The notes beneath the pieces were generated by a model. That model saw only the letters and a program-made list of their open reading frames with translations, was not told the origin of the DNA and did not search any database. Source: Streptomyces qaidamensis (GTDB lineage: Bacteria; Actinomycetota; Actinomycetes; Streptomycetales; Streptomycetaceae). Taken from it: a stretch of DNA of 64,000 nucleotides. The DNA lies in NCBI RefSeq assembly GCF_001611795.1, contig NZ_CP015098.1, positions 1,922,001 to 1,986,000 on the forward strand, written 5' to 3'. This document shows, piece after piece, positions 1,232 to 44,876 of this stretch (the first letter of the stretch is position 1; every line of letters starts with the position of its first letter). Position numbers and translations under genes: made by a program.

Positions 1232-2065
1232 TCAGGCGGAGGCGCGTGCCTTGCGGTAGAGGATCGCGCCCGCGAGCAGCGCGCCCGCGCCGGCCGGGAG
1301 GGCGAAGCCGAGCGGCAGGTCGCTGCCGGTGCTGGCGAGCTGGGATTCACCTTCGGGCTGGGTGACGAACTGGGCGCCCGGCTTGTTGCCGTGCGAGGAG
1401 CCGCCCGAGGTCTCGCCACCGGTGGAGGGCGGGGTGCCCGGAGTGCCGCGGTGCCCGGGCTCACCGGGATCGCCGGGGTGGCCGGGCTTGCCGGGTTCAC
1501 CGGGGCTGCCGGGGTGACCGGGCTCGCCCGGATTTCCGGGGTTCCCCGGGTCGCCGGGGTCTCCGGGGTTCCCCGGCCGGCCCGGCTCGTGGCCCCCGGG
1601 CGGGGTGCCGTGCTGTCCGCCGCCGTTGGAGCACTCGTTGCCCGTGCTGGGGTTGCCCACGCCGATGACGTCGACGCTGTTGCCGCAGACGTTCACCGGC
1701 ACGTGGACCGGCGCCTGGACGTGGTTGCCCGAGCCGACGCCGGGTGAGTCGGTGGCGTGCCCGCCCGCGTGGGAGCCGCCCTTGCCGCCGTGTTCGCCGT
1801 ATCCCCCCGACGACGATCCACCGCCCCCGTTGGCGCACGAGTTACCCACCGACGGGTTGAGCACACCGACGACGTTGACCGTGTTCCCGCACACGTTGAC
1901 CGGTGCGTGCACCGGCGCCTGCACCGAGTTTCCGGACAGCACGCCGGGCGAGCCCGACGCCGAGCCCTGGGCGCCCGAGTCGGCGTGAGCGGAGCCGCCC
2001 GCGGCGGCGATCACGCCGGTCGCGGCCGCCACGGTCATCAGACCCTTGCGGGTGACCTGTCGCAT
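1232..2065 (-). CDS. chpC: Long chaplin ChpC, sortase-anchored hydrophobin-like surface protein
   Basis: 277 aa. Chaplins assemble into amyloid-like hydrophobic fibrils on aerial hyphae; long ones are covalently anchored to the wall and carry two chaplin domains. Seen here: signal peptide 1-28 (cut after AHA); chaplin domain 1 about 41-79 with Cys59 and Cys77; domain 2 about 109-147 with Cys127 and Cys145; a Gly-X-Pro repeat spacer at 162-212; the sorting signal LASTG at 243-247; a hydrophobic helix and a basic tail. LAxTG is the class E sortase type; that sortase is not in this window. The next gene is chpH in the same orientation, as in S. coelicolor. A terminator separates them, so they are probably transcribed separately. 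Confidence 0.95.
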   Translation of the reverse strand: MRQVTRKGLMTVAAATGVIAAAGGSAHADSGAQGSASGSPGVLSGNSVQAPVHAPVNVCGNTVNVVGVLNPSVGNSCANGGGGSSSGGYGEHGGKGGSHAGGHATDSPGVGSGNHVQAPVHVPVNVCGNSVDVIGVGNPSTGNECSNGGGQHGTPPGGHEPGRPGNPGDPGDPGNPGNPGEPGHPGSPGEPGKPGHPGDPGEPGHRGTPGTPPSTGGETSGGSSHGNKPGAQFVTQPEGESQLASTGSDLPLGFALPAGAGALLAGAILYRKARASA

Positions 2066-42748: not shown

Positions 42749-44302
42749 TCAGCGGATGCCGGTGAGGTGGGCGAAGACGACCACGTTGCCGGAGTAGCCC
42801 TTCCTGCGGTCGTAGCTGCCGCCGCAGGTGATCAGACGCAGCTCGGGGCGGCCCCGGGCGCCGTACACCTCCTGGCTGGGGAAGTGCGCCTTCTCGTACG
42901 ACTTGATCTTGTCGACCGTGTAGACGGCGATCCGCCCGTCGACGCGGCGGGCCTTGACGATCCGGCCCCGTTTCAGCTCGGTCAGCCCCGCGAAGACGGC
43001 GGGCCCGCTGTCCGTGTCCAGGTGCCCTACGGCCACGGCGGTGCCCTGCTCGCCGGGTGAGGCGCCGTGCTGGTACCAGCCGACGAGCCTGGGGTCGTCG
43101 TCCGGCGGCGCGGTGAGGCGGCGGTCGCGGTCGAGGCCGAGGCCCATGACCGGGGCATCGACGCGGAGGTAGGGGATGAGGAGCCGGGTGGCCCGGGAGC
43201 GGGGCAGGGGACGGGGGCCGGGCGGGGAGTGGGGCTTCCGGGCGGCCGGGGCGGGGACCCGGGCGGCGGGCCTGGGAGGAGCGGGGCGCGGGGTGGCGAC
43301 CGCGGGACGGCTGTGCGGCGCGGCGGGGTTGCCCTTGCGGGCCCCGGGGGGGGGGGAACTGGGGATGGGGGGATGGGGGGCTACGCGAGGGCCTTGGGTG
43401 CGGGCGCCGTTGGGGACGGGGCGGGGGGCGGGGGGGGCGTCGGTGGCGGGCCCCGGGGCGCGGGGGGTGGCCGCGGAGGCGGCCGTCCGGGGTGGGCCGG
43501 TGCGCGGGCTGGGGGCGGTGGAGGCGGCCGTGCGGGCAGCGGTGCCGGTGCGGGCGCCGGAGGCTCCCGGCGAGGCGGTCGCACGGGGACCTGGAGATGG
43601 GGGCAGGGCAGCGGTGCCCGTGCCGGAGCCGGCCGGGTGGGCGGCCGTCGTGAGGTCCGGCGGGAGGGCCGTGACCGTCGAGCCGGGCTCTTCGCCCCGG
43701 TCCCAGCAGACCCCGGCCACGAGCAGCATGGCGACGGCTACCACGACCGTCCTGGTCAGCCGATAGGCACGCGTCCGGTACCGGGGCCTACGGCCTCGCC
43801 CGGACCACCCGTCAGGGACGCCGGCGGCCATCGCGTACCGCCCGCCCGGGCCGGCGCCGGAACCACGCCGCCCGACGGGGGCCGCAGCGGACCTGCCCCC
43901 ACGCCGGGCCCCCGGGGCCCGAGCGGACCCGGCCCCACGCCGACCCTCTGGCGCCGCGGCAACGCCGCCCCCACGCCGCCCCACTGCAGCACCGGCAGAC
44001 CCCGAACCCGACCGAGACCCCGAACCGCCGACCACTCCCCGCCGAACCTCCGAAGCCCCGGCAGAACCAGCCCCGCCCCCACGCCGCCCCGACGACACGC
44101 GAGCGGCACCAGTACCACCCCCGCTCCGCCCCGGCGGCACACCGAAGGAACCGGCGTCCGCCGCTCGCCGAACCGCCGGGGCGGCGCCGGGCCGGGCGCC
44201 GCCTGCACGTCGCCTCACCGGCCCGGCGCCGGACCCCAGCGCGTCTCCGCCCCGCCCCAGCGGGGCGGAGCGATCCGCGGAACGTGGCTTACGCGGCGCC
44301 AT
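42749..44302 (-). CDS. Class F-type sortase with a long low-complexity N-terminal region
   Basis: 517 aa. Catalytic domain in the last ~150 residues: His427 in AVGHLDT, Cys493 in LITCGGS, with Arg499/Arg500 as the likely third member and YSGNVVVFAHL at the end. One membrane anchor near 180-197 (VVVAVAMLLVAGVCW). The N-terminal ~170 residues (cytoplasmic) are Arg/Gly/Ala-rich and the extracytoplasmic linker (about 200-370) is Pro/Ala/Thr-rich, much longer than in typical sortases. Its start lies 14 bp inside the 3' end of the upstream secreted-protein gene, so it is translationally coupled to its likely substrate. Confidence 0.88.
   Translation of the reverse strand: MAPRKPRSADRSAPLGRGGDALGSGAGPVRRRAGGARPGAAPAVRRAADAGSFGVPPGRSGGGTGAARVSSGRRGGGAGSAGASEVRRGVVGGSGSRSGSGSAGAAVGRRGGGVAAAPEGRRGAGSARAPGARRGGRSAAAPVGRRGSGAGPGGRYAMAAGVPDGWSGRGRRPRYRTRAYRLTRTVVVAVAMLLVAGVCWDRGEEPGSTVTALPPDLTTAAHPAGSGTGTAALPPSPGPRATASPGASGARTGTAARTAASTAPSPRTGPPRTAASAATPRAPGPATDAPPAPRPVPNGARTQGPRVAPHPPIPSSPPPGARKGNPAAPHSRPAVATPRPAPPRPAARVPAPAARKPHSPPGPRPLPRSRATRLLIPYLRVDAPVMGLGLDRDRRLTAPPDDDPRLVGWYQHGASPGEQGTAVAVGHLDTDSGPAVFAGLTELKRGRIVKARRVDGRIAVYTVDKIKSYEKAHFPSQEVYGARGRPELRLITCGGSYDRRKGYSGNVVVFAHLTGIR
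43346..43356 (-). repeat. 11-bp C homopolymer (coding strand) inside the sortase gene
   Basis: Eleven consecutive G on the plus strand, i.e. C11 in the coding strand within the Pro-rich linker (SSPPPGARK). More G runs of 6-8 follow at about 43367-43436. Such tracts can slip during replication and switch the frame before the catalytic domain. Confidence 0.8.
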
Positions 44303-44876
44303 CGGGGCGGCGGCGGAGCCGGAACCAGACCGTCCCGGCCACGGCGGCCAGGCCGACCGCGGCCGCGCCGGTGACCGGCGTGAAGGCCTCACCGCGGGCG
44401 ATGCCGCCACCGCCCGCCGGCGGGCCGCCGACCGGCGTCGTCGGCTTGGAGGTCGGGCAGTCGACCTTGAACACCTTGAACTTGCCCGCACCGTGGGCCT
44501 GGTCGGTGAGCCACGTCAGCTTGTACTGCCCGTTGGGCAGGTCGACGGCCGCGGTACGCCCCGCGCCGGTCGCGTCGGCGGTGAAGCTGCCCGTGCGGGT
44601 GGCGCCGCCCGGGACCTCGGGCTGGGTCTGGATGGTCCAGTTGACCTTCTCGCCCGCGTCGAAGTTGAACGCGGCGAGGTAGAAGTCGCAGACCTTCGGG
44701 TCGTTGCGCTGGTTGGCCGCGGCCGTCGTGCTGGCGTGGATCTTGACGTCTCCGTTGTCCCCCGGAATGGGGGCGGCGACGGCGGACACCCCGCTCAGGG
44801 TGGTCCCTGCGAGGGTGAGGGCGGCGACGACGGCGGTGCGGGTGCCGGCACGACGCGCGAGGGGTACGACGGGCAT
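44289..44876 (-). CDS. Secreted protein with a TPVTG-type sorting signal (probable sortase substrate)
   Basis: 195 aa. ATG 44876 is chosen because GGAGG (44884-44888) is 7 nt upstream of it and only 1 nt from the earlier ATG 44882. Signal peptide 1-~35 (RTAVVAALTLAGTTLSGVSAVAA). The mature part has two Cys (CDFYLAAFNF; FKVDCPTSKPTT) that could form a disulfide. C-terminal sorting-like signal: TPVTG at 166-170, hydrophobic stretch 171-185, RLRRR at 186-190. The downstream overlapping sortase is the obvious partner. Function of the displayed domain unknown. Confidence 0.85.
   Translation of the reverse strand: MPVVPLARRAGTRTAVVAALTLAGTTLSGVSAVAAPIPGDNGDVKIHASTTAAANQRNDPKVCDFYLAAFNFDAGEKVNWTIQTQPEVPGGATRTGSFTADATGAGRTAAVDLPNGQYKLTWLTDQAHGAGKFKVFKVDCPTSKPTTPVGGPPAGGGGIARGEAFTPVTGAAAVGLAAVAGTVWFRLRRRPDGAA

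Follow-up and report, generated by a model that had tools for sequence, protein, structure and literature searches.

Sortases of class F are numerous and widespread in the Actinomycetota, and no role has been assigned to them in the literature that we found (PMC6998099, PMC13251363). Biochemical study has been confined to one class F enzyme, sortase F of Cutibacterium acnes, which reportedly recognises LPXTG and has a housekeeping function (cited in PMC13257024). In Actinoplanes, a mutant without any of its four class F sortases showed no visible phenotype, and the search for substrates with an LPXTG-like pattern passed over proteins adjoining these enzymes (PMC13251363). Two proteins of Actinoplanes missouriensis beside class F sortases, AMIS_11010 and AMIS_36440, are secreted and have a C-terminal helix and a basic tail; they were suspected as substrates yet discarded because they have no known pentapeptide, and the authors recognised no motif in them (PMC13251363). 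By this description they resemble the protein described below. The model GVDTG_CTERM (NF058571) shows that NCBI curators have recognised a core form of the proposed class F signal; in the literature searched, which excludes most subscription journals, we found neither GVDTG named together with a sortase nor a description of class F signals in Actinomycetota.

Here we describe a locus in a 64,000-nt stretch (the window; NZ_CP015098.1, positions 1,922,001 to 1,986,000) of the 9.08-Mb chromosome of Streptomyces qaidamensis, where the genes for a secreted protein, the putative substrate, and a class F sortase overlap.

Gene pair and class F sortase

Both genes lie on the minus strand. The substrate gene (44289..44876), delimited by its reading frame and its homologues, encodes 195 aa from ATG 44876 or 197 aa from ATG 44882, and we favor the former start because GGAGG precedes it and the orthologues start with MPT or MPA. 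The sortase gene (42749..44302) encodes 517 aa with a PF04203 domain, and because its frame opens at ATG 44302, the 14 nt ATGGCGCCGCGTAA (44289..44302, minus strand), comprising the sortase start and the substrate stop, are common to both genes, in agreement with the overlap stated in an earlier sequence-only reading of this DNA. Among 79 pairs of AGGGG-type substrates and sortases, 59 overlap, and the shared length is usually 14 or 11 nt. The sortase start region also encodes the C-terminal GAA that is conserved among the substrates; the conservation of this GAA need not, therefore, reflect protein function, and it arises at least in part from the sortase start codon.

The assignment of the enzyme to class F was borne out by the model NF033748 (201.1 bits, E 7e-60; curated cut-off 166); the class E model gave 13.5 bits against a cut-off of 160. 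An N-terminal hydrophobic segment VVVAVAMLLVAGVCW (43703..43747, minus strand) is, by its pattern, a predicted membrane anchor, and the catalytic domain with His427 and Cys493 (42752..43195, minus strand) was delineated by alignment, structural model and fold search. The catalytic His and Cys are invariant in 109/109 class F domains, and in 106 of these the catalytic Arg is replaced by an Asn that aligns with the class E Arg; in the present enzyme Asn506 occupies this site, and a conserved Arg489 lies four residues before the Cys. Since this replacement has already been published for class F of Actinobacteria (PMC6998099), we claim no novelty for the loss of the Arg. The catalytic domain was modelled with pLDDT 95.6 and has a sortase fold, the best PDB matches being at E 7e-9; among solved structures, the full-length sortase sequence found no match, and the class F profile found distant sortases only. 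The genome contains ten sortase-domain genes; the class F model recognises seven of them, and six score above its cut-off. The nearest named sortases belong to S. iakyrus, S. massasporeus, S. lomondensis, S. coeruleorubidus and S. tibetensis.

The N-terminal 175 residues of the sortase (43760-44302, minus strand) consist of low-complexity RRGxGSA repeats, with 36-nt repeats and atypical codon GC in the DNA. The same ORF reaches 1027 aa in S. tibetensis (L235), and this region is possibly a fast-evolving repeat.

Putative substrate and proposed position of its sorting signal

Homologues of the substrate in Streptomyces are 96-38% identical to it. A signal peptide ARRAGTRTAVVAALTLAGTTLSGVSAVAA (44772..44876, minus strand), predicted by pattern, is followed by an ectodomain (44457..44753, minus strand) for which the AlphaFold model, the invariant columns of the alignment, including C65 and C142, and weak fold matches point to an Ig-like beta-sandwich. 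The pLDDT exceeds 90 for most of residues 45-140, and the fold search gave only weak Ig/Fn3-like matches (TM 0.2-0.37), so that a function was not assigned; the substrate sequence likewise had no match among solved structures. The description of the substrate as a probably anchored protein of unknown function stands, with a predicted fold added.

Between the ectodomain and the membrane segment lies a Pro/Gly-rich stretch that contains GGPPAGGGG (residues 152-160; 44403..44429, minus strand). The 21-residue hydrophobic run FTPVTGAAAVGLAAVAGTVWF (residues 167-187; 44322..44384, minus strand) starts with TPVTG (residues 168-172 of the 197-aa reading; 44367-44381, minus strand) and is followed by the basic tail RLRRR (44307..44321, minus strand); the structural model has a helix at 179-189 with low confidence. 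The LPXTG anchor model PF00746 gave 11.6 bits on this protein, under the gathering cut-off of 20, and inspection of the sequence found no LAXTG before the membrane helix. Elsewhere in the window, as the earlier reading had noted, a long chaplin with ChpA-C domains (1232-2065, minus strand; E 2e-50) ends with LASTG, a signal of the class E type; it also has a collagen-like stretch scoring just under its cut-off.

The sequence-only reading had proposed TPVTG, the hydrophobic stretch and RLRRR as a sorting signal. All three elements are present, and TPVTG resembles motifs of the SPXTG or PPXTG type, but the C-terminal alignment of orthologues shows that it is not conserved. It occurs in 3/64 members of the substrate family; at its position the others have TPVAG (14), TTVAG (9), GPVAG (8), APVAG (5), SPVAG (4) or forms found in one or two members each. 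The element AGGGG, which starts 12 residues ahead of TPVTG, is conserved in the family. In addition, TPVTG lies 15 residues from the Arg tail, where the rule among class F partners is 27-42 (mean about 32) and Gly157 of GPPAG is 30 residues from the first tail Arg. Because TPVTG is inside the hydrophobic run, an extracellular enzyme would need to cut at or within the membrane. We have thus rejected TPVTG as the sorting motif and regard a cut between Thr171 and Gly172 as extremely improbable. On the sequence evidence, the signal would be the upstream GGPPAGGGG, with a predicted cut after Ala156.

Survey of class F sortase loci

We collected class F sortases with their surroundings from this genome, Streptomyces and 148 genomes of the class. 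A neighbor with a C-terminal helix and a basic tail was found for 169 of 189 class F sortase ORFs, and 13 of the 20 ORFs without one had little upstream sequence. The motif was initially sought with a loose regular expression, but this also hit arbitrary ORFs (17%) and other ORFs having a helix and a basic tail (36%), and we therefore turned to a position-specific profile and to the independent model of NCBI.

The motif can be written as G-[GA]-[VPA]-x-[T/A]-G-x-G-[GSA]. By inspection, it or a near form is present in 71/74 non-redundant class F partners; in two loci that seemed exceptional (L219, L210) the motif sits in an ORF skipped by the script and in another (L234) in a disrupted frame. 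In the 67 partners passing the profile threshold, positions -4 and -3 are mostly G and position -2 is V, P or A; the residue before the predicted cut is Ala in 35, Thr in 29 and Gly in 3, and Gly is found at +1 in 67/67 and at +3 in 66/67. The ectodomains of the partners form about 30 clusters that show no similarity to one another, which indicates that the motif was not inherited together with one domain. Outside the class, in other classes of the phylum, a neighbor with the motif or a near form is present at 17 of 20 class F loci, and both the Thr and the Ala type occur there. A glycine-rich tag therefore adjoins nearly every class F sortase examined in actinobacteria.

These data bear on the view that the substrate is an uncleaved single-span membrane protein, whose glycine stretch is a flexible linker and whose neighboring sortase does something else. 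The Gly/Pro-rich composition of the stretch and the Asn found in place of the catalytic Arg (PMC6998099) would fit this view, but a linker does not readily account for two nearly invariant glycines at fixed spacing behind unrelated ectodomains, nor for a pairing of motif and class F sortase that is kept across the phylum, and we consider it quite improbable.

Three loci showed peculiar arrangements. At one (L140; G000:C1:8147500-8157500), a single class F sortase has two motif partners, GGVRGGIGG in a divergent gene and KGVHAGEGG in a codirectional one, so that one enzyme may serve two substrates. At another (L141; G000:C1:1161500-1171500), the partner of the sortase at 1165989 has GGMHTGGGAL with a His/Lys-rich flank and three more ectodomain copies, and these repeats look like an amplification of the signal itself. 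At the third (L142), a LARTG-ending protein belongs to the cluster of a class F sortase and a partner with APVRAGGGG; the end of its gene lies some 2.4 kb upstream of the stop of that sortase.

Independent model and natural contrasts

The model NF058571 was made by others, and a test with it avoids circularity, as does the set of loci from outside the class. Residues 149-188 of the substrate align with model positions 1-42 of 44 (19.6 bits, E 8e-4), which is under the curated cut-off of 29 bits, and the order and spacing of motif, helix and basic tail, with a class F sortase adjoining, agree with the model. The five best matches in the genome (2963912, 8153369, 4751180, 1966319, which is the window substrate, and 1166831) all adjoin class F sortases; one match in this genome passes the curated cut-off. 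In 118 genomes, 45 of the 50 matches with E <=1e-4 lie beside a class F sortase: 40 within about 2 kb of a listed one, the coordinates being compared by eye, four further ones on inspection of the DNA, and one (G400) that counts only if its contig is circular. Of the other five, two are at contig ends and three, which are partial matches or a LAETG protein, are not beside a class F sortase.

In the sortase tree, where many forks lack resolution, the residue before the predicted cut follows the clade, with six Thr/Ala changes in all; some Gly-rich members of the window's clade, wrongly labelled 'G' on the tree, were left out of the Thr/Ala count. The clade of the window's enzyme has the Ala form (PPAGGGG, PVGAGGGG, VPAGGGG), and other clades mostly have Thr. 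A paralogue of the substrate in this genome, at 3762724 and 42% identical, ends with the class E signal LAETG, and no gene for a class F sortase lies within about 4.5 kb of it; at ten loci in other genomes a LAETG paralogue is likewise without a class F sortase nearby. Of 49 loci with an AGGGG-type substrate, the sortase is present at 39, contig ends truncate nine, and one (L063; G168:C1:1069500-1079000) keeps the substrate with the catalytic domain of the sortase deleted, the frame entering an aldehyde dehydrogenase gene; this locus is a natural loss of the sortase.

The genome encodes three sortases besides the seven of class F, so that the glycine-rich signal could be real while another enzyme, of class E or class F, does the anchoring and the adjacent one is redundant or unspecific; the Actinoplanes quadruple mutant without phenotype (PMC13251363) would agree with this. 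It is rather unlikely, however, considering that the motif type tracks the clade of the adjacent sortase, that the overlap of the substrate gene with that sortase gene is conserved, and that class E signals are LAXTG.

Discussion

We consider that a dedicated class F sortase probably cleaves GPPA|GGGG and attaches the Ig-like protein to the cell wall. The locus would be a translationally coupled operon of two genes, for one wall-anchored protein and its own sortase. The signal peptide would export the substrate, and the C-terminal helix with the Arg tail would hold it in the membrane, where the membrane-bound sortase may recognise the motif, here GPPAG-GGG, cut at the predicted bond Ala156/Gly157 and transfer the ectodomain to a presumed acceptor in the wall. 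A dedicated pair with a noncanonical signal had been proposed in the earlier reading; such a pair is well supported by the near-universal adjacency and the recurrent overlap, and the proposed signal is a different one from TPVTG. That the enzyme may serve this substrate exclusively, as was also proposed, is suggested by the gene position.

In favor of this pairing of enzyme and signal we count the AGGGG kept in the family, the motif in 71/74 partners and about 30 ectodomains, the 17/20 loci outside the class, the 45/50 matches of NF058571, the Thr/Ala residue following the clade, the LAETG paralogues and the conserved gene overlap. Against it we count the NF058571 score below its cut-off, the frequency of the loose motif in high-GC ORFs, the quadruple Actinoplanes mutant without phenotype, and the reported LPXTG specificity of the C. 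acnes enzyme.

On a wider scale, we lean slightly toward the view that class F forms a branch of its own among the sortases, distinct in mechanism, in which one enzyme serves one or two neighbors through a glycine-rich motif without Leu-Pro or Leu-Ala, with Ala or Thr as the scissile residue and Asn in place of Arg, the window's clade having the Ala form PPA|GGGG. If the glycine-rich motif is the signal, a list of substrates can be drawn up for each genome and the activity becomes testable with short peptides; an enzyme accepting Ala at the cleavage residue would, if true, also give protein ligation a tool of a different kind.

Compared with known systems, the locus shares with NF058571 the order of motif (G-V-D-T-G in the model), Gly-rich stretch, helix, Arg tail and adjoining class F sortase; unlike the consensus of that model, the window substrate reads GPPAG, in which position 2 is Pro and Ala replaces Thr. 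With SrtE1/SrtE2 and the LAXTG chaplins of Streptomyces it has in common the sortase fold and a C-terminal signal with a helix and a basic tail, but the class E enzymes retain the Arg, use LAXTG and have many substrates (PMC5148588), whereas the window sortase has Asn and belongs to another class. With the C. acnes sortase F (5UUS) it shares the label class F of the literature, and the 5UUS sequence matches the class F profile at E 0.0055, no closer than sortases of class C or D.
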